A stretch of 57,344 bases of DNA from a virus, in the IMG/VR virus record IMGVR_UViG_3300018410_000010, positions 1-57,344 of that record. One strand, written 5' to 3'. How positions within the stretch are numbered: the first letter of the stretch is position 1; the number at the start of each line of letters is the position of its first letter. Shown here piece after piece: positions 5,934 through 22,500 of this stretch. A program made the position numbers and the translations under genes. Below the pieces are notes generated by a model. That model saw only the letters and a list, made by a program, of their open reading frames with translations, was not told where the DNA came from and made no database searches.

Positions 5934-5948
5934 GGTGCGTTTCCTTTA

Positions 5949-6419: not shown

Positions 6420-6977
6420 TTACTGTCTATGCAAATATAAATCGACCGGTATACAAATTCTAAGGCTAGAAAGATAAGGATTTACGCAATGATATGCAAA
6501 GCTTGGAAATATCATATAGTCACCAGTTTTTGGCGCATGAATATGGTTTTGAAACAAAGAAAAAAACCAATCATCATATCCTCTATTACAATTCGATCTA
6601 GGATCTGAAAATACTATTTCGCCTCCTACGTCTTTTTCTTCTACCATAATGTAAAATACTCCAGACAATTGAGAACCAGAATGATTATGATTTGACATAC
6701 TATAGTACTTACCATGTCCGGTAATCCAAGCTTTCATCTCATAACTATCATAATCTGAAATTCTTTTACCAATTGTATTTATAAGATATTCATCAAATTT
6801 ATTATAAACTACTTTTTTAAACTTTTCCATTGTGGAATGTTTATCAGCAAAAATACTGTTTCCATCTACGCCGGGTCTTGAGCTTAAATCATAGTTAGAA
6901 AAAATATATTCGACTAAGCCTTCTACTTCAAAATTACCAGAGCCAAACATAGTCGGCCATAAAGCATCCATTTTCAT
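6420..6977 (-). CDS. Putative 2OG-Fe(II) oxygenase (2OG-FeII_Oxy_5-like)
   Basis: This 185-residue protein has the layout of the putative 2OG-Fe(II) oxygenases common in marine T4-like phages. Visible are H97xH99 in SNHNHSGSQLSGVFYI, GGEIVFSDPR at 118-127, PKTGDYMIFPS at 149-159, H163 in FAYHCVNPY and R173 in SLRICIP. These match the iron ligands and the 2-oxoglutarate-binding Arg of the double-stranded beta-helix fold. Such enzymes hydroxylate a C-H bond in a protein, peptide or small molecule. It shares SDPRxNxNRG with the plus-strand oxygenase at 12516-12977. It faces the island across a 101-base divergent region and may work with it. A late promoter and a GAGGTGA ribosome-binding site precede it. 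Confidence 0.8.
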   Translation of the reverse strand: MKMDALWPTMFGSGNFEVEGLVEYIFSNYDLSSRPGVDGNSIFADKHSTMEKFKKVVYNKFDEYLINTIGKRISDYDSYEMKAWITGHGKYYSMSNHNHSGSQLSGVFYIMVEEKDVGGEIVFSDPRSNCNRGYDDWFFSLFQNHIHAPKTGDYMIFPSFAYHCVNPYLSSLRICIPVDLYLHRQ

Positions 6978-7078: not shown

Positions 7079-7537
7079 ATGACATTTGACCAATTTGAAG
7101 CTTACTTGTTATCCGAAGCTTGTTATCAAAATCATGACGTCTCTATTATCGATCATCAACAATTGCAGCACTATATAAAAGCAAACGACTTTATAGAATA
7201 CAACGCTTTGATGTCTAGCCATTTAGCTCAAGGTGTAGTCACTATTAAAGTAGAGCAAATGGAGCGCTATTGGGAGTTCGATGATAGAACAATTCATGCT
7301 TTCTATAATCCAAAAAATGGTCCAACATTTCCTGAACATACTGACGATGTAGATGTTATTATCGAATGTAAAGATGGAATTAAAAATATGGAAGTAGACG
7401 GTAAAGAAATTGCATTGCAACCGGGTGATAAGTTGATTATATCAAAGGGAACAATGCACAAAGCATTAAATTATGAAAAGGCATTAATGGCATCACATGG
7501 GATTGGCGACACAGCGTCACTTGAGCGTTTACGTTAA
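7079..7537 (+). CDS. Cupin protein with HTD...H metal site
   Basis: This 152-residue protein is the first gene of the island. The cupin core is at about residues 70-145: FYNPKNGPTFPEHTDDVDVI carries H87 and D89, GIKNMEVDGKEIALQPGDKL is the central turn, and KGTMHKALN gives H127. H-x-D plus a distal His is the two-His-one-carboxylate pattern of non-haem iron enzymes, so it could be an oxygenase, an isomerase-like cupin or a metal-dependent binding protein. The N-terminal 60 residues look helical and are unassigned. Its last 41 bases overlap the start of the first radical SAM gene in another frame, so the two are probably coupled. The ribosome-binding site (AGGATTAG) is ordinary. Confidence 0.75.
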   Translation: MTFDQFEAYLLSEACYQNHDVSIIDHQQLQHYIKANDFIEYNALMSSHLAQGVVTIKVEQMERYWEFDDRTIHAFYNPKNGPTFPEHTDDVDVIIECKDGIKNMEVDGKEIALQPGDKLIISKGTMHKALNYEKALMASHGIGDTASLERLR

Positions 7538-8522
7538 AACGACAGAGACTTGTAATTTAAACTGTTCTCACTGTTTTACTTCTGGCATTAATGGAGCAAA
7601 AATTTATTTTGATCCAGTTCGTACTGCCAATTGGGTGAATCAGCTAGACAGAGATACAATTTTTTACGAATTTCACGGGGGTGAGCCTATGCTTGCCTCC
7701 GTCGAATCTATGCGCAAATTTGTTGAACTTACAAAGGGTGAAGGTGTCGATTATGGTATGACAACAAATTTGGTGTACAAACTTACAGATGAAAAACTTG
7801 AGTTTTTTGACGACGTCTTAAATAAGAGAATTGGAACGTCTTGGGATCCTACTATACGTTTTACAAATGATAGGCAAAGAAAACTATGGGAAGATAACGT
7901 AAAACTGCTAGTTGAACGCGGCTATACAATTAAATGTTTTGTGAGTTTAAGTAAAGATGTAATTAATATGGAACCAAGAGATATTGTTTCTTATATGGAA
8001 TCTCTTGGTGTTAAAGAACTAGATTTTGAGCGTATTACTATGGATGGTAACGCTAAAGGAAAAATGTGGCCATCTAACATTGAATTAGATAAATGGTTTA
8101 TGAGATATCATAATCAAATCGAAAGTAGAGATTCTATTTTTCATGTAATTATGGAAAACATTTACGCTAAATTTGAAGATAATAATCCATCTCGTGGTAC
8201 TTGGTGTAGAGATTGCGAACAAAAACTATTGACAATTAATGCAGATGGTAGTATAGCTGGATGTCCTAATACTGCTCCTCATAAAGCATACGGGCATATC
8301 GATACTCCCGCAAAAGAAGTAATGAAATCTACTGGCCGATGTGATATTATAATTAAAGAATTAAATAGAAATCCTGCATGCTTTTCTTGTCCGGTATTTG
8401 ATGTATGTGGATCAGATTGTCATCAATTAGAGTGGGAAGGTGAAATATGCCCGTCTCCTAAGAGTTTAATGCAGCATCTGAAGGATATAAATAATGTACA
8501 TATACTTAGAATTGGAGCTTAA
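7497..8522 (+). CDS. Radical SAM/SPASM enzyme 1, candidate peptide maturase
   Basis: This 341-residue protein has the radical SAM cluster motif C19xxxC23xxC26 (CNLNCSHC), followed by FHGGEP, the SAM-amine motif. The C-terminal region is a Cys-rich SPASM domain with C237, C240, C256, C295, C298, C304, C308 and C318, including ADGSIAGCP and CFSCPVFDVCGSDC. SPASM enzymes bind extra iron-sulfur clusters and most known ones modify ribosomal peptides or enzymes (sactipeptide, cyclophane and PQQ-type maturases). It lies directly before the gene whose product ends in CHYS repeats, with only two bases between them, so that peptide is its obvious candidate substrate. The ATG at 7497 overlaps the cupin gene; no better start is seen before C19. 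Confidence 0.88.
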   Translation: MGLATQRHLSVYVKTTETCNLNCSHCFTSGINGAKIYFDPVRTANWVNQLDRDTIFYEFHGGEPMLASVESMRKFVELTKGEGVDYGMTTNLVYKLTDEKLEFFDDVLNKRIGTSWDPTIRFTNDRQRKLWEDNVKLLVERGYTIKCFVSLSKDVINMEPRDIVSYMESLGVKELDFERITMDGNAKGKMWPSNIELDKWFMRYHNQIESRDSIFHVIMENIYAKFEDNNPSRGTWCRDCEQKLLTINADGSIAGCPNTAPHKAYGHIDTPAKEVMKSTGRCDIIIKELNRNPACFSCPVFDVCGSDCHQLEWEGEICPSPKSLMQHLKDINNVHILRIGA

Positions 8523-8524
8523 AA

Positions 8525-9106
8525 ATGGTATCTTTAAATAATAATGTTAGAAAGTCTAATGTTATTGACAGATGGGAAGATTATGTCGCTGACGACGCAA
8601 GAGGTGGTCTTGTGTGGGGATTAGACGCTAAGCCTTTCAGTACTGCTCCAGACGATTGGTTTGGAGGAGATATTGCTAGCCCACCTGCAAAAGACTCTTA
8701 CGTTTCAGACAGCAATATTAGTGGAACACTTATTGAGGCAACAGCCACGCGAAACGCGCTAGTGACTGGCACAACACAGTGGACTCATCTAAGAAATATG
8801 CGCGCGGTTCAATTATTTAATTCCCAAGGCACCCAGCAGGGAACATTTGATGACACACAAAAAGCATACCAAGAAACTGGTCAAAGAGTAGATGTTACAG
8901 ATCCTGCCATTCCAACACAAGGGCCTTCAAATAATGGAAATCTCATTACTATCGGCTCAGATTCTGCACAAACTGGTATGGAGCACTATCTTGCTAGACT
9001 TCGCGGCGCTTATAGAACTATTCGAGATGACGCAGTATATAGAGAACAAACTGTCTGCCATTACAGCTGTCACTATAGCTGTCACGGCTCAAGAGGAAGA
9101 AGATAA
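8525..9106 (+). CDS. Candidate RiPP precursor ending in CHYS/CHYS/CHGS repeats
   Basis: This 193-residue protein is of no family I recognise. Residues 1-170 are hydrophilic, without Cys, signal peptide or membrane segment, and contain ARGGLVWGLDAKPF, a Gly/Ser/Thr-rich middle and a helical LARLRGAYRTIRDDAVYR stretch. All its cysteines are in the last 16 residues, CHYSCHYSCHGSRGRR (178-193), three copies of Cys-His-Xaa-Ser followed by a basic end. A long leader and a short repetitive Cys/His/Tyr/Ser tail beside four radical SAM/SPASM genes is the pattern of a ribosomal peptide precursor. The tail resembles the His-Xaa-Ser repeats of HxsA. The start has GGAG 8 bases upstream; the stop overlaps the next ATG as TAATG. 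Alternatives: a metal-binding tail, or overlapping CX3CH haem-type sites. Confidence 0.7.
   Translation: MVSLNNNVRKSNVIDRWEDYVADDARGGLVWGLDAKPFSTAPDDWFGGDIASPPAKDSYVSDSNISGTLIEATATRNALVTGTTQWTHLRNMRAVQLFNSQGTQQGTFDDTQKAYQETGQRVDVTDPAIPTQGPSNNGNLITIGSDSAQTGMEHYLARLRGAYRTIRDDAVYREQTVCHYSCHYSCHGSRGRR
9056..9091 (+). repeat. Three tandem 4-residue CHxS units (candidate core)
   Basis: Twelve-base units encode CHYS, CHYS and CHGS. Codons differ between units (TGC/TGT, CAT/CAC, TAC/TAT, AGC/TCA), so the repeat is kept at the protein level and is not a recent copy at the DNA level. It is followed by codons for RGRR and the stop. Confidence 0.85.
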
Positions 9107-9846
9107 TGAATACAAGAGATACAGTGGCTCCTATTCCTATTGAATTACTTAAGGAGTATTTTAGTGATGATAGTATCGTTTTTAATATTGACTATGAAAA
9201 AAGTCTTTTAAAGGGTGATAAGATTATTACGTATCTAAGCAATTTAGATGTGCCATGCAAACTTACAGGTTTTGATAATGTTTCTTTAGAAGATAAAATG
9301 TCTTTAGTAAGAGATTATATGAATTCAAATCTCATAATTAACAGCAATGAACTTGAAGTATGCGTACTTAAAATATTACATAACGCAGCCATATATGATT
9401 TTGTGCGTCGATATGACGTTCAAGATATTTTAGACGAAAAAGAAATAGAGATTTTTTGCGAAAAAAATAAAGAAATAATTCATAAGTGGCTTGTTATGCT
9501 AGCAAGCTGTTCAGTGTATGCCATATATTCGATTGAAGATTTTAAAGATAAGGTAAAAGAAGAATTTGAAACTATAGATGATTATGATTATTGTGGCGTG
9601 AATTTTGTGCAATTATTTAAATACGAAGATACTCAGGTTTTGTTAACAAATCAAGACTTAGATGTATATTATTTTGAAAAACAATTTAACGAGCCTATGT
9701 TTAAAGGAGCTAATATATTTTATTATTGGCAAACAGAGGAAAACACAATGGCAATTATGGCATGGGGAATATCAACCGGAGAAATAAAACACGGTGATTT
9801 CACCCGTGCTATAGAAAAAGGATACGAAAATGTTTCTGCTTTTTGA
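9106..9846 (+). CDS. Unrecognised acidic helical protein of the island
   Basis: This protein of 246 residues matches no family I know. It is acidic and mostly helical, with ELLKEYFSDD at the start, LEDKMSLVRDYMNSNL, a Glu/Lys-rich EKEIEIFCEKNKEIIHKW around 120, and a beta-like C-terminal third (FVQLFKYEDTQVLL, NIFYYWQTEENTMAIMAWG). There are four scattered Cys with no clear metal motif and no signal peptide. Its ATG overlaps the stop of the candidate precursor, so the two are made together. A role in recognising or presenting the precursor, or in protecting from it, would fit the position, but nothing in the sequence proves it. Confidence 0.6.
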   Translation: MNTRDTVAPIPIELLKEYFSDDSIVFNIDYEKSLLKGDKIITYLSNLDVPCKLTGFDNVSLEDKMSLVRDYMNSNLIINSNELEVCVLKILHNAAIYDFVRRYDVQDILDEKEIEIFCEKNKEIIHKWLVMLASCSVYAIYSIEDFKDKVKEEFETIDDYDYCGVNFVQLFKYEDTQVLLTNQDLDVYYFEKQFNEPMFKGANIFYYWQTEENTMAIMAWGISTGEIKHGDFTRAIEKGYENVSAF

Positions 9847-11002
9847 TAGAGTTTATGTTAAGTACGATTTTTTACTTGACAACAACGTTGATAATTTAAC
9901 TATCAGCCCTAATTTATCAATTCTAAACTGGGATGCGCTTGAGCTGGTGCATTCAAACATGGGTAATGAAATGCACAGGGTGCAGTTATATGAGCAACTA
10001 TTTCCCGGTTTTACATCTCCTGCAATGCCTGAAGGACAAGATCCTTTGCGAGAAATTGATACTCCCTACCCAAATGATCTAGCGTTTTTTCAAGCATTAT
10101 TAGATAAAGGACGCCTTAATATACACGTAGATACTGTTGCTTACGACCAACTCTTTTCTAAATTCTTAAAAATATTCTTTCCAAATATGCCAAGGGAAGT
10201 AGTATGGAAAACTTATAACATATTTAGAACAAATAGTCAACTACTTAATACAACTTCTTTTATATGGGGAGTTGAAGGATATGATGCAGTACAGCAAGCA
10301 AATGCAGATGCATGGGTGCCTAGAACAAAGACTCAATTTTTAGAAGTATTTGATGCAACAACTTTAGATTTACCTGACGCAGATTATAATACATTTAGAA
10401 CTAATGCCAAGCAAAAAATTGGAATTGAATGGATGATTGCAAATAGATTAAACGGCGATCAAACATACGATGTTTCTCTTGGCGAAAAAATGTATAAGCT
10501 TATGTCACAGCGTATTAATGAAGAAGTACAGTTTCTTAAGTCATCGTTATTTAGTAATCTATTTAGAGGATGGTCTCAAACAGTATTAGGATTGTCGTCA
10601 GTTGATGCTAATACAGATTTAATGGATCTTCGAGATACTAATGATAAAACCCGATGGTTATTTGATGATGACGATAAATTCTCATCTCCTGATTATCTTG
10701 CTCGTCACCCAAATATTCAATTTAGTACAATACGTACAAATATTTTGCAAGCGGTTACCGCAAATAATACTCCAATCGAAGAAGCTCTTACAGATGATAT
10801 GATGAATTTCGTATATAATAATACCGCATTACAAAACTTTACAACTGCTGATATTACTACAATATTAGATAATGATAGAAATCATTTAGGTCCATCAGTA
10901 TTTGAATCTGAAGATAGAATTAAGGTAAATTCTTTATTTTTAAGTTACATTTATAAACTTAAAAACAACGATGATAGTGAGTTAGGCTTATTTAGTTTAT
11001 GA
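9830..11002 (+). CDS. Unrecognised 390-aa protein of the island
   Basis: The protein begins MFLLFDRVYVKYDFLLDNN and continues with mostly helical, Asn/Asp-rich sequence (FLKIFFPNMPREVVWKTYNI, FLEVFDATTLDLPDADYNTF, IGIEWMIANRL, EEALTDDMMNFVYNN). It has no cysteine, no P-loop, no radical SAM motif, no signal peptide and no membrane segment. It overlaps the gene before it by 17 bases and the oxygenase after it by 4, so it belongs to the same transcript. Possible roles are a scaffold or a peptide-binding partner for the modification enzymes. I cannot assign it; a structure prediction would be most informative. Confidence 0.6.
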   Translation: MFLLFDRVYVKYDFLLDNNVDNLTISPNLSILNWDALELVHSNMGNEMHRVQLYEQLFPGFTSPAMPEGQDPLREIDTPYPNDLAFFQALLDKGRLNIHVDTVAYDQLFSKFLKIFFPNMPREVVWKTYNIFRTNSQLLNTTSFIWGVEGYDAVQQANADAWVPRTKTQFLEVFDATTLDLPDADYNTFRTNAKQKIGIEWMIANRLNGDQTYDVSLGEKMYKLMSQRINEEVQFLKSSLFSNLFRGWSQTVLGLSSVDANTDLMDLRDTNDKTRWLFDDDDKFSSPDYLARHPNIQFSTIRTNILQAVTANNTPIEEALTDDMMNFVYNNTALQNFTTADITTILDNDRNHLGPSVFESEDRIKVNSLFLSYIYKLKNNDDSELGLFSL

Positions 11003-11541
11003 TTCAAAATTGCTATGAGTCTTCGATATGGATTAAACAATTTGTAAATAGCGATAATTTCAATCAAGACGTTTTAAATACAACTAAAGCAATATCAGCC
11101 ACGGTTCCTGAGCCTGTGGCTGATTATAATATTGACTTGTGGCAAACAGATAATATGCTCACAATTAAGTCTTACTTTACTGAAGGATTTAATGCGCTTT
11201 GTGAGCAGTACGAAGAATCATCTTCTTATAATATAGATTCTATGAATATTATCAATCCTATGAAGTTTGGCGATTTTAAATCATGCCATACTCATGATGT
11301 GATTGATGCCTTTGGTGTATATTATCTAAATGACTCTGAAGAAGGCGGTAAGCTTAGATTATATGATCCACGATTCTTAAATAAAAAATCATTTACCAAA
11401 GAAGCATATATAGAAATAGAACCTAAAACTGGTTTAATGGTTGTAGCTCCTTATTATATTTGGCATGAAGTTACTCCATACCTCGGAAAAGAAACGAGAT
11501 ATAGTTTAGTATGTAATATGGTATTTGATAATGTTGTCTAG
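10999..11541 (+). CDS. Putative 2OG-Fe(II) oxygenase A
   Basis: The C-terminal half of this 180-residue protein is a typical putative 2OG-Fe(II) oxygenase: CHTHD at 96-100 (H97, H99, D100 as iron-ligand candidates), FGVYYLND, GGKLRLYDPR at 116-125, PKTGLMVVAPYYIWHEVTP with H156, and KETRYSLV with R167 as the likely 2-oxoglutarate anchor. The N-terminal 85 residues are a less conserved alpha/beta lead. The ATG overlaps the previous stop by four bases, and radical SAM 2 overlaps its 3-prime end, so the two are coupled. The substrate is unknown; a residue of the island peptide is a candidate. Confidence 0.8.
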   Translation: MIQNCYESSIWIKQFVNSDNFNQDVLNTTKAISATVPEPVADYNIDLWQTDNMLTIKSYFTEGFNALCEQYEESSSYNIDSMNIINPMKFGDFKSCHTHDVIDAFGVYYLNDSEEGGKLRLYDPRFLNKKSFTKEAYIEIEPKTGLMVVAPYYIWHEVTPYLGKETRYSLVCNMVFDNVV

Positions 11542-12547
11542 TATAATTCCCACACAAAACGTAGATATAATAACGAAACAAAATAAAAGATCTCAAGATG
11601 GTGAGATCATTGTTACGTTATTTGAATATTGCAATCTCAGCTGTACGTTTTGTAATCAAGATCATAATAGTCTTGAAGGCATAGATACAATTTTAGAAAA
11701 AATACAGGTTGTACAGAATATTATCCAAAAAACTCCAAAGGACCATTATAGTGTGCACTTTATGGGAGGCGAAGTATTTGCTGATGGTTTGCCTGATACA
11801 GTATTTGATGATTATGTAATCTTATGCCATGAATTAAATACATGGGCGCATCAACAAAATATTAGTCTTGAAATTTGTTTTACAAGTAATATGGTCTTTG
11901 ATAATAGAGAAAGATTAGATAACTTTCTTTATCAATCTAATCCTACGTTACTTACAAGCTTTGATCCAGCAGCAAGATTTAATAAAAAGAATTTTAAAAT
12001 ATTTCAAGATAATGTGAAGCACTACAAAGACTTTATTAAGTCTGCTAATGTGATTATGACTAGACCAACTATAAATAAGTTCATGAATGGCGACGTAGAG
12101 TTTTTTGATTATCTTTACGACAACTTCGATATATATTTTGATTATTATACACCAGAGAAAAATATGAAGTTGTTTATTCCAAATGATATTCAACTGCGCG
12201 ACTTTATGATTTATATGCTTGAGCATTATCCTAAAGCTTTACCATTTGCTGATTATACAAATAAAGTAAAAAAGCAAATGAGCTGCATGGATACAATAAC
12301 AATTATGCCAAACAATTCATTTGGCGCCTGTACTATACTGTTGAATAATTTTAAAAATGTAACGGCAACAAAAATCGAAATGGAACAAGAATGGTTCAAG
12401 CAATATAATTGTCTTGAATGCCCACATTTTCAATACTGTTCTATGGGATGTTTTTTGTCAAACCATATGCAAAGTTTTAGAACACAAGAAGCATGCTGGT
12501 TAAGTGAGGTTTATGATGTGGTCCACTCCAATACAAGTATTCAATAA
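11531..12547 (+). CDS. Radical SAM/SPASM enzyme 2
   Basis: I place the start at the ATG at 11531 (338 residues) rather than the in-frame TTG six bases before. C34xxxC38xxC41 (CNLSCTFC) is the radical SAM cluster motif and FMGGEVF the SAM-amine motif. The C-terminal SPASM region has CMDTITIMPNNSFGACTILL followed by CLECPHFQYCSMGC and a final Cys in EACWLSE. This arrangement fits peptide- or protein-modifying SPASM enzymes. It lies directly after oxygenase A and overlaps oxygenase B. Its sequence differs strongly from radical SAM 1, so it probably catalyses a different step or acts at a different residue. Confidence 0.85.
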   Translation: MLSSIIPTQNVDIITKQNKRSQDGEIIVTLFEYCNLSCTFCNQDHNSLEGIDTILEKIQVVQNIIQKTPKDHYSVHFMGGEVFADGLPDTVFDDYVILCHELNTWAHQQNISLEICFTSNMVFDNRERLDNFLYQSNPTLLTSFDPAARFNKKNFKIFQDNVKHYKDFIKSANVIMTRPTINKFMNGDVEFFDYLYDNFDIYFDYYTPEKNMKLFIPNDIQLRDFMIYMLEHYPKALPFADYTNKVKKQMSCMDTITIMPNNSFGACTILLNNFKNVTATKIEMEQEWFKQYNCLECPHFQYCSMGCFLSNHMQSFRTQEACWLSEVYDVVHSNTSIQ

Positions 12548-12977
12548 TGGATATCAAGATCCATTCGAAAGATATAAAGATTTTTTAAAAGATCATTATA
12601 AGCTTGATTTAAACGATTTTAAATACGACATACGAGAATGGAAAACAACTCCAGGCTCAGGCTATTGGATGTCTCCGCATAATCATGGTCACTCTCATTT
12701 TACTTCAATATATTATAATCACATTTCTGGTGAAGGTGGTGAATTAATTCTTCATGATCCAAGAGTAAACGCAAATAGAGGATTTCCACAAGAGTTTGGA
12801 TCTGAGTTTGCTCCTTACATTATTCAGCCAGAAACTGGAATGACTGTGATATTTCCATCTTACGTTTATCATACAGCTGCGCCATTTAGAGGCATAATAA
12901 GAGAAGCAAGCGTAAGTGAGATACAGCTTGCGAGTATAAGTACTGGGGATTCATATTTAGGAGCAACATCGATATGA
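12516..12977 (+). CDS. Putative 2OG-Fe(II) oxygenase B
   Basis: I choose the second of two adjacent ATGs (12516; 153 residues) because AAGTGAGG ends 6 bases before it; the open frame also has a GTG at 12504 lying inside that site. The motifs are HNHGHSHFTSIYYN (H55, H57), GGELILHDPR at 74-83, QPETGMTVIFPSYVYHTAAP with H119, and IIREASV with R129. HDPRVNANRG closely matches SDPRSNCNRG of the minus-strand oxygenase at 6420-6977, so these two are paralogues. It overlaps radical SAM 2 by 32 bases and the next oxygenase by 4. The substrate is unknown. Confidence 0.8.
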   Translation: MWSTPIQVFNNGYQDPFERYKDFLKDHYKLDLNDFKYDIREWKTTPGSGYWMSPHNHGHSHFTSIYYNHISGEGGELILHDPRVNANRGFPQEFGSEFAPYIIQPETGMTVIFPSYVYHTAAPFRGIIREASVSEIQLASISTGDSYLGATSI

Positions 12978-13609
12978 ATGTAAATCAATTTTATAAGGAC
13001 GGATATGATGAATGGGAAATGCCTTCACATTTAAAAGCTATGATCTGGGGACAACTACTCAGTGAGAATTGGATTGATCATCCGGTTTATAAAGCAATTC
13101 CAGATTGGAGTATTAATCAAGGTGGTGAAGCTCAACTATATCGACAAAAATATGAGCGTAGAGATGAGCAAGAAATTAATCAAAAATCTTTAGAGCTTAT
13201 TCCTGAAACATATAGAATGGTAATTGAAGAGTTATTTAATGAAGGTTATTATCATGAATGGTTTCAAAACGTGTGCGGATATAATTATAAACTTAAATTC
13301 GTCGATGTATGGAATGGCTCAGACGATCTAGGATGGCATTGGGATGGAGTTGAAGATCACGATATTGGATTCTTAATTTACTTTACTGAAGAACAAAACT
13401 GGAAAAAAGAATGGCAATCATACTTATCTCTTGGCGAAAGAGATTGGCAGCAAGAAAATATTGAGCTTAAACACACGGCTTATCCTGCTAATGGTAAGAT
13501 TATATTGTTAAATAATATGAATCCAAGGTTTGTGCATTCTGTTGCAAAACTAACAAATGATAATGTAAATAGATATACAATTAACGCAGGCTTTTCTTTA
13601 TGGAATTAA
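12974..13609 (+). CDS. Putative 2OG-Fe(II) oxygenase C (HxD...H...R)
   Basis: This 211-residue protein carries a full set of 2OG-Fe(II) oxygenase residues: H122-W-D124 in GWHWDGVEDHD, H188 in NPRFVHSV and R200 in NRYTINAGF. The N-terminal 90 residues contain a WGQLLSENW segment and helical sequence. It is more like oxygenase E at 15129-15836 than like A or B: the W-H-x-D-G box, ILLNN, FVH-V and RYTI-A-GF are shared in the same order. It overlaps oxygenase B and radical SAM 3 at its two ends, which suggests coupled translation. It probably hydroxylates a residue or small molecule within the same pathway. Confidence 0.8.
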   Translation: MNVNQFYKDGYDEWEMPSHLKAMIWGQLLSENWIDHPVYKAIPDWSINQGGEAQLYRQKYERRDEQEINQKSLELIPETYRMVIEELFNEGYYHEWFQNVCGYNYKLKFVDVWNGSDDLGWHWDGVEDHDIGFLIYFTEEQNWKKEWQSYLSLGERDWQQENIELKHTAYPANGKIILLNNMNPRFVHSVAKLTNDNVNRYTINAGFSLWN

Positions 13610-14595
13610 TTATTAAACCAACTGAACGTTGCAATTTTAAATGTACTTTTTGTTCAAGTACATCGATTGCTGATGACATAAAAGATCAGTTGGGTTTAAG
13701 CTATATTTTCAAATTTCTAAAAAGATTTCCAAACACCAATACAATTATTGTAAATGGCGGCGATCCATTAATGATGGATCCTAAGTATTATCGAAAATTG
13801 TTAGATCATATTGAAATTTTCAATTATCAAACAACCGTTTCTTTTACTACAAACCTATGGCCTTTTTATAAGAATCCTGAAAAGTGGATAGATATTTTTA
13901 CACATCCACGAATGGGAATTACAACAAGCTTTCATTATGGTGATTCTAGACTTAAAGGTGATTATTCAGTATTTACTGAAGAAGATTTCTGGGCCGTATC
14001 AGATAAAATGTTAGAACTCGTCGGTTATAGACCCGATTTTATTTCAGTAATTGACGAAGCAAACGAAGATACAGCTTTAGATAATGTAAGGCTTGCAAAA
14101 AAGATGGGTGTTGAATGCAAATTAAATTATGCTATGGCATCAGGTATTCAATCTCGCCCATATCAATTATCTAAAATGTATAAATTATATTTAGATGTTT
14201 ATGAAGCTGGTTTAACCGACTGGGAATTTAATACTAAGCAAATGATTAAACGTCTACGCAATGAAGCTTTAATGTGTCCACAAAATAGAAATTGTGATGA
14301 TACAATCAGAGCACTGCAACCTAGCGGCGACTATTACTCATGCGGTGCTATGGGAGACGATAGAGAATATTCTATTGATTTTAATCGAGAAATGAATGGC
14401 GAATTTTTTAGACCATTGCAAGAAGATCTCGAAATACAAACAATGCATGACGGATGCTATACATGTCCAATGTTCCAAATTTGTAATGGATGCAAGAAAA
14501 CAGTCAAAGATACTAAACGACATAATATGGTTGAAGAACACTGCACATTAATGAAACAATTAGCTCCAAGGATTATCGATGCAAATAACGGATAA
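13600..14595 (+). CDS. Radical SAM/SPASM enzyme 3
   Basis: This 331-residue protein has C11xxxC15xxC18 (CNFKCTFC) close to the N-terminus, IIVNGGDPLM as the SAM-amine motif, and a barrel of alternating strands and helices. The C-terminal part holds the extra cluster cysteines: MCPQNRNCDD, LQPSGDYYSCGAMG, then CYTCPMFQICNGC and a last Cys in EEHC. This is a complete SPASM-like set. It follows oxygenase C with a 10-base overlap and precedes oxygenase D with a 17-base overlap. The N-terminal segment before the first Cys is very short, so a peptide-recognition domain is not present at the N-terminus; recognition would need the barrel or a partner protein. Confidence 0.85.
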   Translation: MELIIKPTERCNFKCTFCSSTSIADDIKDQLGLSYIFKFLKRFPNTNTIIVNGGDPLMMDPKYYRKLLDHIEIFNYQTTVSFTTNLWPFYKNPEKWIDIFTHPRMGITTSFHYGDSRLKGDYSVFTEEDFWAVSDKMLELVGYRPDFISVIDEANEDTALDNVRLAKKMGVECKLNYAMASGIQSRPYQLSKMYKLYLDVYEAGLTDWEFNTKQMIKRLRNEALMCPQNRNCDDTIRALQPSGDYYSCGAMGDDREYSIDFNREMNGEFFRPLQEDLEIQTMHDGCYTCPMFQICNGCKKTVKDTKRHNMVEEHCTLMKQLAPRIIDANNG

Positions 14596-15139
14596 TGCCC
14601 TTTCGAATATTGATTATAAGAAAATTCATCATTATTTTACTTCAGAAATACCAATATGGCGTTTTATGCCTGGAATTAATGATAATGTTAACAGTACTAA
14701 TCAGCCTGAATACAAACCGACTTCATGGGGTTTTACATGCAATATTAGCAATACTATAGCGGACATTAAGGATAAGCATGCTTATAGATTATTAAAACCT
14801 CTTATTTTAAATAAAGAAAAATTAGTGAGAATCAGATGCGGATTTATAGTGAATGTAGGTCCGTCTAAACTACATAAACCTCATATTGATCAGCAATCAA
14901 TAGAACATATTACTCAACTTTATTATTTAACAGATAGTGATGCTGTTACAAACGTATTCGAAGAATATGGAAATGACCCAAAATATGATAGTTATCAACC
15001 CGAAGATTTTACTGTTAAATTCCGATGTACACCAAAAAAGAATAGAATGTTTATTTTTGATGGAATGCATTGGCATAGTTCTTCGCCCGTTTTGGGTAAA
15101 GAAGCAAGATTAGTGTTGTCGATTAATTATGCTAAATAG
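14579..15139 (+). CDS. Putative 2OG-Fe(II) oxygenase D
   Basis: In this 186-residue protein the iron and cosubstrate residues are H102-I-D104 in KLHKPHIDQQS, H166 (or H164) in DGMHWHSSSPV and R177 in KEARLVLSINY. This is the pattern of small 2OG-Fe(II) oxygenases that act on aspartyl/histidyl or prolyl-type side chains, though the substrate cannot be read from sequence. AAGGA lies 7 bases before the ATG. It overlaps both neighbours. It is not close to A, B, C or E, so the island holds at least three distinct oxygenase types. Confidence 0.78.
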   Translation: MQITDNALSNIDYKKIHHYFTSEIPIWRFMPGINDNVNSTNQPEYKPTSWGFTCNISNTIADIKDKHAYRLLKPLILNKEKLVRIRCGFIVNVGPSKLHKPHIDQQSIEHITQLYYLTDSDAVTNVFEEYGNDPKYDSYQPEDFTVKFRCTPKKNRMFIFDGMHWHSSSPVLGKEARLVLSINYAK

Positions 15140-15836
15140 AAGTCCAAATTTTAACGATCTATATTTAAAAGGCGCCGATATCGTAGAGGTTGATTCGTCA
15201 TTTAATGCTATGCTTTATGGATTGCTAATGGCTGAAACCTTTGTCGGTGATGGCGCAATTCAAAATCCAATTTGGGATAGAGAATATCATGAAAGAGATT
15301 TAGATGTTTATGTTAAAGGAAAGCAGCCTTATTTAGAATTTTTCCAAGAAGTTGTTAAATCAGAATATTTTGATTATTGGAGGCATGTTTACGGAGATTT
15401 TGATGAAATACATGTAAACATTAATAAGGTAGACCAAACCGGGGAGATGCCTTGGCACTTTGATGGCTTCGATGGAACTTTATTACAAATTCTTTGTTAT
15501 CCAAACATGGATGATTTTGAGGAAAAAGATGGCGGTCATTTTTTAGTTGGTAGACCTGATAATTTATATCGAAACGGAGACCCTATGCCTCATTGGGATC
15601 CTCAATCTTCTTTAGATAATATTTTAACAAAAAACGTAAAAGTTACACAAAAGTATGTACCTAATCGAAATAGTGTGGTAATATTAAATAACAATGATCC
15701 ATCTTTTGTTCATAGAGTAACTCAGTTAAAAGCAGATAAAACTCGATATACAATTATCGCAACGCTTGGCTTTAGTTCTCTTTGGTCTCAAAACAAATTA
15801 AAATTGGGTCATTATAAAGGCACCAAATTATTATGA
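15129..15836 (+). CDS. Putative 2OG-Fe(II) oxygenase E (paralogue of C)
   Basis: This 235-residue protein has H110-F-D112 in MPWHFDGFDG, H195 in PSFVHRV and R206 in TRYTIIATLGF, a complete 2OG-Fe(II) set. Shared blocks with oxygenase C include the Lxx(A/S)E start region, W-H-x-D-G, IL-NN, FVH-V and RYTI-A-GF. Compared with C it has a longer insert between the HxD and distal His (about 130-175, with GGHFLVGRPDNL). It ends with a basic tail (LKLGHYKGTKLL). It overlaps oxygenase D by 11 bases and radical SAM 4 by 4. Together with C it supports a past duplication of an oxygenase plus radical SAM unit. Confidence 0.8.
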   Translation: MLNRSPNFNDLYLKGADIVEVDSSFNAMLYGLLMAETFVGDGAIQNPIWDREYHERDLDVYVKGKQPYLEFFQEVVKSEYFDYWRHVYGDFDEIHVNINKVDQTGEMPWHFDGFDGTLLQILCYPNMDDFEEKDGGHFLVGRPDNLYRNGDPMPHWDPQSSLDNILTKNVKVTQKYVPNRNSVVILNNNDPSFVHRVTQLKADKTRYTIIATLGFSSLWSQNKLKLGHYKGTKLL

Positions 15837-16738
15837 TTATATCTTTGAATCCAACATATCTATGTAATTTTAGATGTGATTTTTGTTATCTCACTTCAGA
15901 ACAATTGGCAGATAAAAATAAAATTGATTTAGAATTGTTAGATCAAAGACTGCTTGAAGTTTCTAATTATCAGCCTATCAGATATATTGATTTATATGGC
16001 GGTGAGATTAGTACTTTAAATGATGAGTATTTTTATGATTTAAAAAGAATTATTCGTAAACATTACCAAGGCGAAATAAACATTGTAACTAATTATGCTT
16101 CTCCAAAAAGCTATATGCATGACAATGATATTTCACTATCTGTATCATTTGATTTTGAAGCTCGTGAAAGATCTGATCTAGTATTTGCGAATATGCTTGT
16201 AAGTCCGGTTCCTATTTCTGTGCTTATTCTTGCTAGCCCTAAAGTCATAAATATGGACGTTGGGCAAATGATTCAACAACTTTCAATGCTTTCAAATATA
16301 CGTTCGGTAGAAATTAAACCGTATTCTACAAACCAAGCAAACGCGCATAACGTAACTCATAAAGACTTCGAATTGTTTGTTGCTGATTGGTTAAACCGCG
16401 ATCTACCGTTTGAGTTTGAAAATAGGCATCGTATTCATGAATCTTTATCTGGAAATTATGACGCATTTAGTAATGACCATGTATATATAAATCCAAACGG
16501 CAAGTTTGCTGTGCTCGAATTTGATAAAAATGATAATGAATACTTTTTAGAATTAGATACTTTTAAAGATTATCTTAAATGGGCAGATGAAGAACCGATA
16601 AAAAATGTCTCTGATATATGTAGAGAATGTAAGTGGTACGGTAAATGTTTGACTGAACATTATAGATATGTTAAAGATTTAGATAATGGCTGTAACGGCT
16701 ATAGAGGACTTTTAGAATGGCAAGAAAAAAAATATTGA
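15833..16738 (+). CDS. Radical SAM enzyme 4 with reduced SPASM-like end
   Basis: This 301-residue protein is the smallest of the four. C11xxxC15xxC18 (CNFRCDFC) and DLYGGEI give the radical SAM core; IVTNYAS and LSVSFDFEA continue the barrel. The C-terminal end keeps only CRECKWYGKC and a later GCNGY, while the upstream position where the others have DGS..GC reads NPNGKFAVLE with no Cys. It may therefore bind only one auxiliary cluster, or share ligands differently. The YxCNFxCxFC opening is close to radical SAM 3, in line with a duplicated unit. It overlaps oxygenase E and the halogenase gene. Confidence 0.8.
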   Translation: MIISLNPTYLCNFRCDFCYLTSEQLADKNKIDLELLDQRLLEVSNYQPIRYIDLYGGEISTLNDEYFYDLKRIIRKHYQGEINIVTNYASPKSYMHDNDISLSVSFDFEARERSDLVFANMLVSPVPISVLILASPKVINMDVGQMIQQLSMLSNIRSVEIKPYSTNQANAHNVTHKDFELFVADWLNRDLPFEFENRHRIHESLSGNYDAFSNDHVYINPNGKFAVLEFDKNDNEYFLELDTFKDYLKWADEEPIKNVSDICRECKWYGKCLTEHYRYVKDLDNGCNGYRGLLEWQEKKY

Positions 16739-18057
16739 TTGTTGGTGGTGGTACTGCGGGTTGGATGACCGCATTAGTTCTTTATCAAAAATACGATGTT
16801 ATGATGATTGAATCACCGAGTGTACCTATTATTGGTGTAGGAGAGTCAACTACAGAAACGGTAATGGATGCTTTGCGGCAAGGTGGTGTTGATATTAATG
16901 ATTTTGTTAAGCATACAAATGCTACACCTAAATATGGTGTAAACTTTTCTAATTGGAGCTCTAAAGATTACTTTCATGCATTCGGAGAAAATTTTTTAGA
17001 AAAAATCTTTGGTGTCGCAGAATGTAATGACTTTTTAGCAGACTGCCATAGATCTGGCAAAGATGTTATATCACTAAGTCCATATACTCATATGGCCCAA
17101 AAAGGAATAGATCCAGTTTTTGGAACAGATGAAGAGTTTTGGTGGGACACAGCTTTACATTGGGAAGCTAGTAAAGTTCCAGAATTTTTTAAAAAATTCC
17201 TTGAAAATAAAATTGTACACATTTACGACCATGTTAATGACGTGCAATCAAACGATTTTGGTATTACAAGTGTAAACGGCCATGTCGCAGATTATTATAT
17301 TGATTGTACTGGCGGTAAAAGAATTTTAAGTAATCATTTAGGAATTAAATGGCAATCTTGGAAAGATGTAACTCCATTAGATTCTGCAATTACATTTAGT
17401 ACTGAAGCAAAGCCAAAAACTTACTATACAAACGCGCATGCTATGAATTGTGGATGGGAATGGTCTATTCCATTACAAGATAAAATGAATCATGGATATG
17501 TATATTCATCTAAACATTGCACACGAGAAGAAGCTCTTGCAGAAATTAAAGCAAAAAGAGGTGATGTTGTAATTAATGGCGACGTTCATTTTGAACCAGG
17601 AGTTTTAGAAACTATAGCTACAAAAAACTTATGCTCAATTGGATTGTCTGCTCATTTTATCGAACCTTTAGAGGCTACAAATATTGAACTTACTGTTATT
17701 ATGGCTAAAGAATTTGATAAAGCTATTGAAAATAATAGTATCGATGAATTAGAAACAAGACTGCAGCAAATTGTAGAAGAAATAAAAAGATTTGTTTTAT
17801 TTCATTATTCTATACCTGAAAAACAAGGACAGTTCTGGAAAGATATATATCAACAGTATACACAAGATGATGTCTTAGAGCGTAAGCAAATTTATCCTTG
17901 GCATCCATTTAATTGGTATTCTGTAGCTCAAGGAATAGGATTTAAAAGAGAATTAGATTTTGTGGATATAGAAGTAGATTATTTAACAACTGAATTTGAA
18001 GTACATAGGAAGGTGGCAGAACTTGAAAGAATGGAAAGTAAGACAAGAAGTCTATAG
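16717..18057 (+). CDS. Flavin-dependent tryptophan-halogenase-like protein
   Basis: This 446-residue protein shows the FAD-binding GGGTAGW at 10-16, IIGVGESTT near 38-46, the equivalent of the catalytic lysine of PrnA at K72 in TPKYGVNF, the halogenase signature WEWSIP at 247-252, and GLSAHFIEPLEATNI at 309-323. These are the diagnostic features of the PrnA/RebH family, which makes HOCl at the flavin and passes chlorine or bromine to an aromatic ring through the lysine. It is about 90 residues shorter than PrnA-type enzymes, mainly in the C-terminal substrate-binding part, so free tryptophan may not be the substrate. Such genes are known from marine phages. No flavin reductase is seen in the window; the host would supply it. 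A peptide Tyr, His or Trp is a possible target. Confidence 0.85.
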   Translation: MARKKILIVGGGTAGWMTALVLYQKYDVMMIESPSVPIIGVGESTTETVMDALRQGGVDINDFVKHTNATPKYGVNFSNWSSKDYFHAFGENFLEKIFGVAECNDFLADCHRSGKDVISLSPYTHMAQKGIDPVFGTDEEFWWDTALHWEASKVPEFFKKFLENKIVHIYDHVNDVQSNDFGITSVNGHVADYYIDCTGGKRILSNHLGIKWQSWKDVTPLDSAITFSTEAKPKTYYTNAHAMNCGWEWSIPLQDKMNHGYVYSSKHCTREEALAEIKAKRGDVVINGDVHFEPGVLETIATKNLCSIGLSAHFIEPLEATNIELTVIMAKEFDKAIENNSIDELETRLQQIVEEIKRFVLFHYSIPEKQGQFWKDIYQQYTQDDVLERKQIYPWHPFNWYSVAQGIGFKRELDFVDIEVDYLTTEFEVHRKVAELERMESKTRSL

Positions 18058-18412
18058 AAGATTAAACGAATCTTTAACCGATGATTTAAATAAAGTAGAT
18101 ATTGTTTGGCGCCCAGAAACAATTGTGGAAGACGCTTTGCGTCATTGGGATGAAGAAGTAGATGAATGGATATATCCTGGTAAATCCTATTTTGTTGCTA
18201 TATGTTATGCGTATTGGATATCAGAAGACTTTGAAGAGGACTTTGAAGAAGTTTTAAATGACCCAGATTTGCTTCCAGGCGATCCATATTTTTTACCATA
18301 CAGCCAAGCAGAAGAAGTATATGACGAAATACTTTCAGCAGTGCGTTATATAGAAGACGGCGCTATGGTATCTGAAGTAAGAAATTATTATGATGAAGAG
18401 ATGCAGTTATGA
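18023..18412 (+). CDS. Unrecognised acidic protein, TTG start
   Basis: The frame is open from an ATG at 17996, but GGAAGGTGG lies 6-7 bases ahead of an in-frame TTG at 18023, which I take as the start (129 residues) and which reduces the overlap with the halogenase gene to 35 bases. The protein is very acidic and helical: KEWKVRQEVYRRLNES, DIVWRPETIVEDALRHWDEEVDEW, then EDFEEDFEEVLND and a Tyr/Glu-rich end. It has no catalytic motif I can name. Coupling with the halogenase suggests an accessory role, for example a partner or inhibitor, but this is only position. Confidence 0.6.
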   Translation: MKEWKVRQEVYRRLNESLTDDLNKVDIVWRPETIVEDALRHWDEEVDEWIYPGKSYFVAICYAYWISEDFEEDFEEVLNDPDLLPGDPYFLPYSQAEEVYDEILSAVRYIEDGAMVSEVRNYYDEEMQL

Positions 18413-18963
18413 TTGAAAGTAAATGGTCAAGTAAAGGCGAAGATACGCATTTTCATAGACCAGATGATTTTAAAGATTTAAAATCTTTGAAAAAAGATAG
18501 ACCTTATTTGTCATTAGAAAATATTGAATTAGTTGGTATTTCAGATACTAGTATTAATATTACATATAATGGAGCGCCGCCTGCAACTATATGCGCTTTT
18601 TTTGGTGTAGATAATCATGTCTTTTGTGATTATTATGCGCTTGAATTGTGTGCAGACGGATCTGAAATTTTAAAAATATATGATCAGGATTTATCTAAAC
18701 ATCCTTTGCCATCGTTACCCGTTGGCGCAAGATTAGATCCCCTTAAATCTGGAATTGGAATATATTATCCAGATGCTCAATTAGCAAAAATATATTTCTT
18801 ACATGACAATCCAGAACTTGTTCATAAGTGGTGGGGATCTAAAAATCCACCAGGACAAATTTCTAGGCTTACTTATTTTGGCGTAGAATTTGATAGAAAA
18901 ACTTTAATTACAACAGATATTTCACAATATTCAATTTATGATAAGGAGGAAGACCTTGGCTAA
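18409..18963 (+). CDS. Unrecognised 184-aa protein of the island
   Basis: I do not recognise this protein. The sequence alternates beta-type segments (LENIELVGISDTSINITYNG, HVFCDYYALELC, GSEILKIYD) with a LPVGARLDPL turn and a Trp-rich VHKWWGSKNPPG near 140. It has three Cys and no signal peptide or membrane segment. Its start overlaps the previous gene by four bases and its end overlaps the TTG start of the P-loop gene by eight. It is clearly part of the same operon. A beta-sandwich or lectin-like binding protein is conceivable, but this is not shown. Confidence 0.6.
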   Translation: MIESKWSSKGEDTHFHRPDDFKDLKSLKKDRPYLSLENIELVGISDTSINITYNGAPPATICAFFGVDNHVFCDYYALELCADGSEILKIYDQDLSKHPLPSLPVGARLDPLKSGIGIYYPDAQLAKIYFLHDNPELVHKWWGSKNPPGQISRLTYFGVEFDRKTLITTDISQYSIYDKEEDLG

Positions 18964-19525
18964 ATCAAACAAAACAATCGCAGTGGTAGGCGCGCATGGT
19001 GTCGGTAAAAACACTATTTGTATTAAACTTTTAGAACGCGAAAAATTTAAAGAGCGTGGTGTGAATGTCACGTATATGCCAGAAACAGTTCGCTCTACTA
19101 TGTTTATGACCGGTGAAATTTTAGAAAAAGAAATAGGCGGTAATTATTATTCTTGTAGCTGGTTGTATCATAGGCATTGGAGTCAAATGCTAGAACATCA
19201 ATATAGTTGTGATGTTTTTATTACTAAAAGACTTCCTCTAGATTATGTTGTATTTAATGAATGCGCATTTAAGCTTGGATTAATTGACAGAATGCTAGAT
19301 CCTCAATATAAAGAATTAGCAGTAATGCAAGCAGCTGATTTTGATGAAGTGTACTTTGTACGCCATAATCCAGAATATGAATTAGTAGAAGATAGTGTAA
19401 GAAAAGGGGCTGCAGCCAGTTCTGAACTACAACCCCTTTGGGATAAACGTTATAAAGAAATTATAGATCACTGGAATATTCCTGTTATTGAAGGAACATG
19501 CGGCGAACTATTAGAGTTATTTTAA
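18956..19525 (+). CDS. P-loop NTPase / nucleotide-kinase-like protein (AAA_28/NadR-like), TTG start
   Basis: The start is TTG at 18956, with AAGGAGG 6 bases upstream; an ATG at 18938 would place that site inside the gene. The 189-residue product begins with a beta strand and a P-loop, TIAVVGAHGVGKNT, then PETVRSTMFM, a FITKRLPLDYVVFN segment that fits a Walker B / DRGxxD-like region, and RHNPEYELVEDSVRKG near the end, as in NadR-type or AAA_28 kinases. The usual Ser/Thr after GK is Asn here with Thr one place later, an unusual P-loop. It is the last gene of the island and meets the fibre gene end-to-end, overlapping by four bases. It may phosphorylate a nucleotide-like cofactor; the substrate is unknown. 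Confidence 0.65.
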   Translation: MAKSNKTIAVVGAHGVGKNTICIKLLEREKFKERGVNVTYMPETVRSTMFMTGEILEKEIGGNYYSCSWLYHRHWSQMLEHQYSCDVFITKRLPLDYVVFNECAFKLGLIDRMLDPQYKELAVMQAADFDEVYFVRHNPEYELVEDSVRKGAAASSELQPLWDKRYKEIIDHWNIPVIEGTCGELLELF

Positions 19526-22500
19526 ACTTTAACTTCTACTTCTCCGTCTTTAGAATCACATAGAGCAATACCAAGAATTTCATGGCTTCCAATACCAGAA
19601 GTTCCGTATGGTACACCTTTACATTTACCAACGGCTTCTGGATCCGGAATTAGCCACATACCTTTTTTGACTGCGCCATCTTCACCAGATACAAATGCTG
19701 GAATACGACCTTTTAAAGCAATAAATGGATTCAATTTTGATTTTTTAGATTTCATATTCTCGATGCCCATGTCATTCATTTTGACACCAGGATTAGTCGA
19801 GATGATACCAGCTACTGGCAAACCTTCACGCCAAACTGTAATCTCAGAATCACCATCTAAATCGATACCCATTAAAGTACCTGGCTCATAGATTTCATCA
19901 GCAGTATAACGTTCCGCCAAGTCAGCCCAGCGAGCTGATGTTGCAGTACCATGATAAACACCATCATTTGCAACATAAGATTTGTTCGACCCATTTACGC
20001 GGAATTGGCAAATACGGTTAGAGTTGCCGCCGACTTCCATATAGAAACGGTTTGAGTGATATTCAAGCTTACCAACATCGTTACCAACGTTACCAGTCCA
20101 GGTTTCGTCACCGCCCTCTTCAAATCTCCAAGTTGGTGAATATCCGTCTTCCTGGCGATATCGTAATTTCCAAGAGCCGGCTCTATTAAGGAAACCACCC
20201 CATGCTCCAGAACCATACAACCACATACGAATAGTACCATCGTAATTTGACCTCATTCTTATACTGATACTTGAACTGTTGTTATTGCCGGTCACAGCCC
20301 AATACTGGGCTTGCTCTGAATAGAAGTGACAACCAGTTGCTTGGTTATATAAACCCTCATCTTCATTATCATTACGGAACCAGTTACGGGCGTAGAACTC
20401 GTTAGCTCTTACAGAAGTAGCAAAGTTAGAAGCACTAGATGGATCACAGTAGTAACCAGTATTATCTGTATCATAATAGATATTAGCATACATTGCAGCG
20501 TTGTTATTATTATTAACACCAAGCACTGGTATTGTACGCCATGATCTCCAACCAGACCAAGAAGAACGGAATCTCAAGTTCTCAATTGGACCACCAACCA
20601 TCTGCCAACCATAACCAGAAGTATTAGAGTTACGATAGTGGTATGCCTGACAACCAACCCAGTGAGATGTACCTGAAGGCTGGTTGTTTGGGTTTCCCCA
20701 AGAATCAATAAATCCTGAACCCCATGTACCTACGACGTTCATATCCTGGGTGCCCCAGCCCATAGCACCAGTCCAATAGTTTGTATCACCAGTCTGTCTT
20801 GGGCGTGCTCTGTAATACTCACCTGAGTTTCTTGTATGACCTGGCAATGCCATGTAAGCCATTGTACGGTTGTTCACACCTAAGAAACGAGAGCTGTTTG
20901 TGGAAGCCGGATTCATGTAATAACCAGTATCATTTGAGTCATAGAAGATCGGCGCTCTTAACGATGAACCAGCTTGTAGGTTATTGTTAACATAAACGTT
21001 ACTGCCACCAAGTGCATCAGAAGCGTTGTTAATCGACATAACCTGACCAGACATATTATAGTCAGTATAGAAACGCATACCATTGTAAGAAGCGTTTGCA
21101 CCAAACTTAAGACCAGTGTGGAATGCAATCCTTAGATCTGGATACGGATTAGACCAACCACCTCCTTCACGATAGATAGCATATGCTGTAGATCTATCAC
21201 TTGACCAGTAAATACCAAAGCTGTCATTTGAAGAAACTGAGCCGTCGTTTGTAAAGTAGTTTGCGCGTACAAGGTTGAGTCTTGATGTACTGTTAGGATC
21301 TATATAGTAGTTAGTATCATTTGTATCGTACATAATTGGAGCGTAGAAGTTATGATACGAACGTACTTCACTATTAGTACATCTAAGCGCCCAACCGTCA
21401 TCTTGAGATAGAATACCAATCTGGTTGCTGTTATTAGCATAGAATCTACCACGTCTGTTGTTACCAGATGTGTGCATATCAATACTGACTACGTTTGCAG
21501 TAGAGTACGCTCTCCAACGCTCAGTAGAAGTTGCATACCAATGCATCGCGTATGCGGTATTGTATAGACCTCTACCACCAGTATCGTTACGGAACCAACC
21601 ATCGTTATAAATTTCACCACGGTTATCAATCGTATTCATTACAGATGTTGAAGCAAAGTCACCATAATAGTTACCGTCGTTGCTATCTGTAAATCTTTGA
21701 GCGTAATGAGTACCTGTTGTGAATGTATTACCATCACCACGAATCAAGAAGTTTCTATCACCGCTTAGACCACCATCATAGAATGCGATGTCTTCGCCAC
21801 CAGATGTAGCAATCTTTAAGTGAGCATCGTTAGTGTCTGTAGCTTGAATATATCCACGAAGGTTACCATTTGAAGTATATAATCTGAGTTCGTTACCACC
21901 ATTAATACGTAGCTGGTTAATTTGTGATGTACCACCTGGATTCATATAACGAGCTGTGTTATCTTCATCATAGTAAATAGCAGCATACAAATCGTTACCG
22001 CCACCATCTGGGTTAACATCATATAACGCAACGTTGCGATAGTTAGAATACGCAGTTCCTGAGTTCCAAGACTGCTGCCATAGACGCATTCCATGACCAG
22101 ATTTCTTGAACATAAGCAAGTTATCTGATCCACCTGAAGAATCAGTGTATGATCTTAAGTGTAAGTAATCGGCCCAAGGTGATGTGTTATTATTAGCCCA
22201 TGATGTGAAACCAAAACGCAAATAACCAGATGGATCTTCGTTTGGTTCAATAATACGATTATCTCTACGTAGCATCCGTTCAGAGTAACCATTTACACTA
22301 CCCTGAATTACGTTATCAACCTGTAAAGTTAATAGACGTGATGTACCATTACCATCAATACGATATGTTGTATTGTTTGAATCATAGAAGATTGGTGCAC
22401 GGTAAGAACCACGAGCCTCCATATATCCTGATGCTGTTCTTTCTTCCCATGTGCCATTATAATAAATGTATACGCGAGCATTACGCTCCATGTACAATTG

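Follow-up and report, generated by a model that had tools for sequence, protein, structure and literature searches.

The stretch of viral DNA analysed here, called the window throughout, comprises 57,344 nucleotides (positions 1 to 57,344 of IMG/VR record IMGVR_UViG_3300018410_000010) and carries at positions 7079-19525 an island of 17 consecutive plus-strand open reading frames (ORFs), in which a series of peptide-tailoring enzyme types is encoded together with a small protein, CHxS, that is considered here as their putative substrate (Table 1). Fifteen of the 16 gene junctions in the island overlap by 1-62 nt, the remaining one being a 2-nt gap. A previous sequence-only reading had described four radical S-adenosylmethionine enzymes (rSAMs), five oxygenases and a halogenase in mostly overlapping plus-strand genes between minus-strand flanks, and its counts and coordinates were found to be right; the enzyme content, namely four rSAMs, five 2-oxoglutarate (2OG)-Fe(II) oxygenases, a JmjC_2/cupin protein and a flavin halogenase, was borne out by Pfam, PHROGs and NCBIfam and by conserved catalytic residues. 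The left flank includes, among other minus-strand genes, a head-tail adaptor (Ad2, 276-1019), and the right flank begins with a minus-strand fibre ORF of 3060 residues, with large fibre genes on the right side of the window. Since the same gene order is shared by relatives at 32-88% protein identity, the island is not an assembly or chance effect.

Comparison of residues over homologues indicated that the catalytic motifs are intact in all recognised enzymes of the island. The four rSAMs match PF04055 with E values of 6.5e-9 to 8e-6, and each of them possesses CxxxCxxC and additional conserved C-terminal cysteines (32-39 homologues compared) of the kind that bind auxiliary clusters, with fewer such residues in rSAM4 (four) than in rSAM1-3. 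The five 2OG-Fe(II) oxygenases (starting at 10999, 12504, 12974, 14579 and 15129) retain HxD/HxH...H...R, and the JmjC_2/cupin gene, which is the first of the island, represents a sixth oxygenase-like gene. The halogenase matches the Trp-halogenase family PF04820 at E 1.1e-72 and displays GxGxxG, WxWxIP and a Lys aligning with that of BrvH (6frl), as is characteristic of flavin-dependent halogenases. It is scarcely credible that these are antiviral-type or nucleotide-modifying, viperin-like enzymes engaged in phage-host conflict: the viperin matches that would suggest it reach 17-39 bits (about 30 bits or less for the rSAMs of the window) and thus fall below the curated cut-off of 180 bits (NF038283), while the cysteines are of the SPASM type and the CHxS protein would be left unexplained. 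A defence-system reading (PADLOC) was rejected as well.

Table 1. Genes of the island and adjoining features in the window.
Feature	Position	Strand	Evidence
2OG-Fe(II) oxygenase on the opposite strand	6420..6977	-	PF13759 E 1.8e-12
JmjC/cupin oxygenase-like protein, first core gene	7079..7537	+	PF08007 24.8 bits (cut-off 22); H87-x-D89...H127 conserved, 41 homologues
rSAM1, radical SAM/SPASM, core	7497..8522	+	phrog_1802 E 3e-63; SPASM TIGR04085 27.4 bits; CNLNCSHC; 8 conserved C-terminal Cys
CHxS protein, putative substrate, 193 aa, tail CHYSCHYSCHGSRGRR	8525..9106	+	tail C178-R193 nearly invariant
phrog_20767 protein, core	9106..9846	+	51/52 spanning loci; no known fold relative
390-aa cassette protein, fast-evolving family	9830..11002	+	matches in 39/52 spanning loci; no Pfam or PHROG match
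2OG-Fe(II) oxygenase a	10999..11541	+	PF13759 E 1.5e-9
rSAM2, core	11525..12547	+	phrog_1802 E 1e-37; CNLSCTFC and conserved C-terminal Cys
2OG-Fe(II) oxygenase b	12504..12977	+	PF13759 E 5e-12
2OG-Fe(II) oxygenase c	12974..13609	+	PF13661 E 6.5e-10
rSAM3, core, most conserved	13600..14595	+	PF04055 E 6.5e-9; 54-58% identity in isolated jumbo phages
2OG-Fe(II) oxygenase d	14579..15139	+	PF13640 E 1.7e-5; HxD..H..R retained
2OG-Fe(II) oxygenase e	15129..15836	+	PF13640 E 8e-6
rSAM4, core	15833..16738	+	PF04055 E 1.7e-7; CNFRCDFC; four conserved C-terminal Cys
Flavin-dependent halogenase, extra of the window clade	16717..18057	+	PF04820; phrog_2928 E 9e-89
138-aa core protein	17996..18412	+	phrog_20737
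184-aa accessory protein	18409..18963	+	function without assignment
P-loop kinase-like protein	18938..19525	+	AAA_28 E 9e-4; phrog_2107 thymidylate kinase E 3e-4
Fibre-like protein, 3060 aa, convergent with the island	19522..28704	-	ends in an ADLAER (Peptidase_G2-like) domain linked to CHxS cassettes

The CHxS protein has no match in Pfam or NCBIfam; its last 27 residues, on the other hand, match a PHROG and proteins of Burkholderia jumbo phages. When the corresponding gene position was read across 56 related viral contigs and five isolated phages, the equivalents were shown to have divergent bodies and a shared tail, CHxSCHxxCHxSR[GS]RR, at the very C-terminus, the repeats being CHYS CHYS CHGS in the window. 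A DNA pattern of this tail alone retrieved at least 119 viral stretches and 18 stretches from bacterial or archaeal genomes, nearly all of the matches terminating an ORF, and the reversed pattern gave zero matches in the records scanned. Matches in Frankia and Pseudoalteromonas (L183, L184) were dismissed as chance, as no such ORF or cassette is found there. The resulting set contains 155 distinct CHxS proteins with 75 distinct tails, in which all Cys, His and three Arg are fixed by construction of the pattern, and the positions that the pattern leaves free are also restricted, the fourth residue of each repeat being mostly Ser and the one ahead of RR mostly Gly. In a 50-row alignment C178, H179, S181, C182, C186, H187, R190, R192 and R193 are invariant. 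The body has diverged much more rapidly than the enzymes (32% identity versus 66-78% for the rSAMs in relative L014), as would be expected of a host-facing protein. An AlphaFold2 model predicts a folded body (pLDDT, the predicted local confidence score, 85; pTM, the predicted global score, 0.81) and a tail of low confidence. A fold search of the PDB with this body returned no relative, and its strong matches in a viral library are gp170 of Atu_ph07, which is a CHxS protein too, and phage proteins that are otherwise uncharacterised. The phrog_20767 protein was modelled with a pLDDT of 94 and gave nothing usable in a PDB fold search.

The usual gene order in phages is cupin, rSAM1, CHxS, phrog_20767, 390-residue family, rSAM2, rSAM3, rSAM4 and phrog_20737, while a second class has two CHxS genes of about 127 residues directly after a fibre gene, with the enzymes a few kb further. 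Among 52 loci spanning CHxS to rSAM4, rSAM1 is present in 48, rSAM2 in 51, phrog_20767 in 51, the cupin in 36 and phrog_20737 in 37; recognised oxygenases range from 0 to 8 per locus and a halogenase occurs in nine. The number of rSAM-like genes per cassette locus is 3 to 9, and 14 of the 18 CHxS records that have no rSAM at the locus carry rSAM3 elsewhere on the contig. Isolates with the core include Agrobacterium phage Atu_ph07, Sinorhizobium phage Phosso, Burkholderia phages FLC6, FLC8 and SURPRISE13 and Pseudomonas phage DT01; for RSF1, RP12 and RP31 annotations of the same enzymes have been published (PMC8066314, PMC5468394). In Phosso, a phage of Sinorhizobium meliloti, the CHxS protein is encoded at 190414-191334 of the record. 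As far as sequence extends, the 17-gene island is kept as a unit in five relatives of the window type (L005, L010, L012, L013, L014). In one of them an rSAM4 frame has a single internal TAA in the genome search output (L013:18384-19268). Two contigs labelled Euryarchaeota (L180) and Bacteroidetes (L187), the latter a near relative of the window, have sequences among or close to those of phages and are probably mis-binned phage contigs. On these comparisons the island is one rich version of a cassette, its 2OG oxygenases and halogenase being lineage-specific extras. The earlier proposal of a linked peptide-tailoring cluster, as opposed to scattered auxiliary metabolism, therefore holds in that widely differing phages keep a core together, and single, unlinked genes in relatives were looked for and not found; the conserved unit is this smaller core, and not the whole 12.4-kb island.

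The cassette is also linked to fibre genes. A profile was built from the ADLAER domain, the C-terminal domain of the 3060-residue fibre of the window, whose Pfam Peptidase_G2 match (E 2e-5 in L179) lies slightly below the cut-off. For 114 CHxS genes, a count in which some contigs are included more than once owing to overlapping loci, an ADLAER fibre gene ends on the same strand beside the CHxS gene (62) or the cassette start (52), nearly always within 425 bp. Another 38 CHxS genes have no ADLAER gene at that position, 16 of them in the clade of the window, where the ADLAER fibre instead faces the 3' end of the cassette in convergent orientation, as seen in seven related contigs (L003, L005, L010, L012, L013, L014, L016); in the tandem class the CHxS gene follows the fibre gene directly, and the window with its convergent fibre differs from this arrangement. 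The domain is likewise present in PA5oct-like and Campylobacter phages, several copies being annotated as virion or tail proteins. This constant neighbourhood, together with that of S74 fibres (see below), might suggest that the enzymes mainly modify the fibre itself, with CHxS as a carrier or recognition factor; such a role seems very unlikely, however, as it is the CHxS tail that is conserved throughout, and most loci have CHxS between the enzyme genes.

Further indication comes from Agrobacterium phage Atu_ph07, for which 131 virion proteins have been identified by mass spectrometry (Attai et al., PMC6102473), most of them encoded in coding sequences (CDS) 31-76, 170-215 and 284-329 (PMC6102473). 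The CHxS protein of this phage is gp170, the first gene of the cluster CDS 170-215, and the numbering is consistent, with gp132/gp140 as sheath and gp181 as baseplate in paper and record alike (PMC6102473). A virion location of the CHxS protein is thereby supported indirectly, and the linkage to fibre genes together with the Atu_ph07 data points to a virion-associated protein.

These observations also bear on the view that the cassette directs a natural product of the RiPP class (ribosomally synthesized and post-translationally modified peptides), in which cleavage from the 193-residue leader would free the tail as a small modified peptide directed at host cells or competitors. In its favour, RiPP clusters typically combine rSAM/SPASM, 2OG and halogenase enzymes with a small ORF whose C-terminal core is conserved, and a precursor with such a core is indeed encoded next to modifying enzymes. 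We nevertheless regard it as unlikely, since the fibre adjacency and the virion cluster would be unexplained and RGRR is conserved at the very C-terminus; no peptidase, transporter or immunity gene for leader removal, export or protection was recognised among the cassette genes, although a host enzyme could serve. The biosynthetic cluster of the sequence-only reading is thus less likely to yield a secreted natural product, in view of a folded putative substrate of about 190 residues, a tiny invariant tail and no recognised dedicated protease or exporter.

The interpretation that we favour, with a probability of roughly 0.6, is that the cassette encodes a pathway, similar to those of RiPPs, that matures the tail of a virion or surface protein associated with fibres, and does not make a secreted natural product. 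The CHxS protein would be the substrate, with a folded, fast-evolving, leader-like body and an invariant tail of three Cys-His repeats followed by SRGRR. Four rSAMs and the JmjC-like oxygenase would modify this tail, the phrog_20767 and phrog_20737 proteins being likely helpers, and the chemistry may consist of cross-links or oxidations at Cys, His or Arg residues; Cys cross-links and His or Arg hydroxylation are plausible in view of the precedents that these families offer in the SPASM maturases and the JmjC ribosomal oxygenases. The extra 2OG oxygenases would decorate the tail further, as would the halogenase in the clade of the window, its probable target being the Tyr of the first CHYS repeat. 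Once matured, the protein would be part of the virion in association with the tail fibre, probably close to the distal end of that fibre, and would probably act at the host surface. Gene content, intact motifs, the invariant tail, conserved linkage and the proximity of fibre genes are directly observed; the action of the enzymes on the CHxS tail and its role in attachment are inferred.

Several points weigh against this interpretation. The resemblance of CHxS to known tip adhesins is positional only, its body fold being without a PDB match, and the presence of gp170 in the Atu_ph07 virion is read from the boundary of the cluster CDS 170-215. No ADLAER fibre was seen on contigs L019 (116 kb) and L020 (82 kb), and FLC6-type phages have no recognisable one upstream. 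Conversely, no relative of rSAM1 or CHxS was found in the PA5oct-like and Campylobacter phages that possess the ADLAER domain.

With regard to the halogenase, a Tyr in the first repeat coincides with a halogenase gene after rSAM4 in 7 of 7 loci with enough flank, as compared with 0 of 31 loci without the Tyr; two of the seven tails are one residue longer and were assigned by eye. Because all seven loci form a single clade, this association is a lead only. Two further halogenases of about 520 residues, with extra 2OG oxygenases, are encoded upstream of the cupin in L019:4387-7500 and L020:4404-7500, and the tails of these loci have no Tyr.

The cassette is not restricted to phages, given that rSAM3 is found in 16 of 290 Bdellovibrionota genomes, in one of them on a 4.15-Mb contig, indicating that it is chromosomal there. 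In the rSAM3 tree all phage sequences fall on one side of a branch (91/91), with Bdellovibrionota outside. Nine genomes have the exact tail, and in seven of the nine an S74 gene lies within 16 kb of the CHxS or rSAM3 piece on the same contig, the genomes having 1-5 S74 chaperone genes each; in the two exceptions without a nearby S74 gene, CHxS is on contigs of about 11-12 kb. In one S74 protein tested, a prepilin motif is found at the start (PF07963 E 2e-5), and the others are of similar appearance. Of seven further genomes without the exact pattern, six have variant tails ending in RGRR (CHGNFPPPCHGSRGRR, CHTNVPTPPPCHASRGRR, CHSNHCSHSNHGSRGRR, CHSSHSSHSSHSSRGRR), and a prepilin-S74 gene is again alongside in five of these genomes; the tail in L229 is CHSNCYTPPPKSRSRR. 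In the predatory Bdellovibrionota, these data suggest, the pathway operates next to a prepilin-anchored S74 fibre. The variants are also relevant to the notion that the Cys-His tail binds a metal or an iron-sulphur centre at the tip of a fibre or spike, with enzymes that assemble or protect it and with modification being secondary. Three CH pairs at a four-residue spacing, several iron enzymes and a low-confidence, hence probably flexible and exposed, tail would fit this notion, which appears quite improbable as variants such as CHGNFPPPCHGSRGRR and CHSSHSSHSSHSSRGRR replace the repeats, so that the number of ligands varies while the enzymes persist. The last of these tails (L232:4310-4918) represents a bridge between CHxS and His-Xaa-Ser repeats, and its locus has a small ADLAER-type protein upstream of the cassette. 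A well-conserved protein of 184-209 residues ending in RHWVK[VI]K or RHWVQVK is paired with the prepilin-S74 fibre in Bdellovibrionota (L214:6150-6704, L215:3694-4323, L219:10929-11528, L226:15714-16298); homology of the approximately 194-residue RHWVK[VI]K protein to ADLAER is not claimed, given one weak hmmsearch match (E 0.001) and an hhalign probability of 10%.

A broader and more tentative proposal, to which we assign somewhat less than an even chance, is that phages and predatory bacteria share a previously unknown class of post-translational modification in which at least four rSAM steps, together with oxygenation and halogenation, give a protein associated with fibres and in contact with host or prey cells a chemically novel tip that is adhesive or reactive. 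No prior description of the cassette was found in the open-access literature searched, a scope that leaves most subscription papers outside. If the proposed pathway is true, tailed phages modify their own particles by a multi-step radical chemistry so far familiar from natural products of peptide origin, and for many phages, including jumbo phages, this would have consequences for how the host is recognised. It would also tie predatory bacteria and phages, two bacterial killers, to one surface chemistry. Four new rSAM families would gain a defined putative substrate, and the orphan radical-SAM genes of sequenced jumbo phages a ready explanation.

The window has further features on its minus strand. 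Relatives of the oxygenase on the opposite strand (Table 1) are often cassette members on the same strand (L035, L125, L179). A block at 2498-5561, conserved beside the cassette in many relatives, encodes a cytidylyltransferase fused to a mannose-6-phosphate isomerase domain, an FkbM-like methyltransferase and a 347-residue protein, and may act on a glycan. Two adjacent DUF7936 (PF25590) paralogues are found at 5604-6362, and an ORF of 3903 residues with repeated YTPTNATYDPxTG and HTFVSA units at 40391-52102 adjoins a collagen-like fibre (35386-39957) that has QG repeats and whose end is S74-like.

Among known systems, the His-Xaa-Ser system HxsA-HxsD (Haft and Basu), cited in PMC9062424, resembles the cassette in combining radical-SAM maturases with a protein that has short repeats near its C-terminus; those of the known system are His-x-Ser, while the window has CHYS CHYS CHGS and pure HxS repeats are seen only in L232 (HSSHSSHSSHSS). 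It differs in that HxsA, HxsB and HxsC models score 16, 41 and 31 bits here against cut-offs of 121.65, 370 and 267.9, and in that the present cassette combines four other rSAMs with a JmjC-like enzyme, has a Cys in each of the repeats and is linked to fibres. The rSAM/SPASM clusters of RiPPs (darobactin, dynobactin, ranthipeptides and relatives of sulfatase maturases) share superfamilies and operon layout with it, whereas here no rSAM reaches a named equivalog and the substrate, of 120-360 residues, is linked to fibre genes. In T-even phages, the tip adhesin gp38 is located near the distal end of the fibre, and its gene, like that of CHxS in the tandem class, is directly downstream of a large fibre gene; CHxS differs in having no PDB fold match and in being accompanied by a modification cassette. 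Annotations of FLC6, S13/SURPRISE13, RP12/RP31 and Atu_ph07 list cupin, radical SAM, Fe-S oxidoreductase and 2OG oxygenase (PMC8066314, PMC11898562, PMC5468394, PMC6102473), the enzymes being given singly and without function and the CHxS protein being left hypothetical. Finally, the MAT fibres of the predator Bdellovibrio bear S74 chaperone domains and look like phage fibres (PMC10769870); the text of that paper mentions no radical SAM or pilin (PMC10769870), whereas the S74 fibre described here carries an N-terminal prepilin motif and is encoded beside a CHxS cassette.

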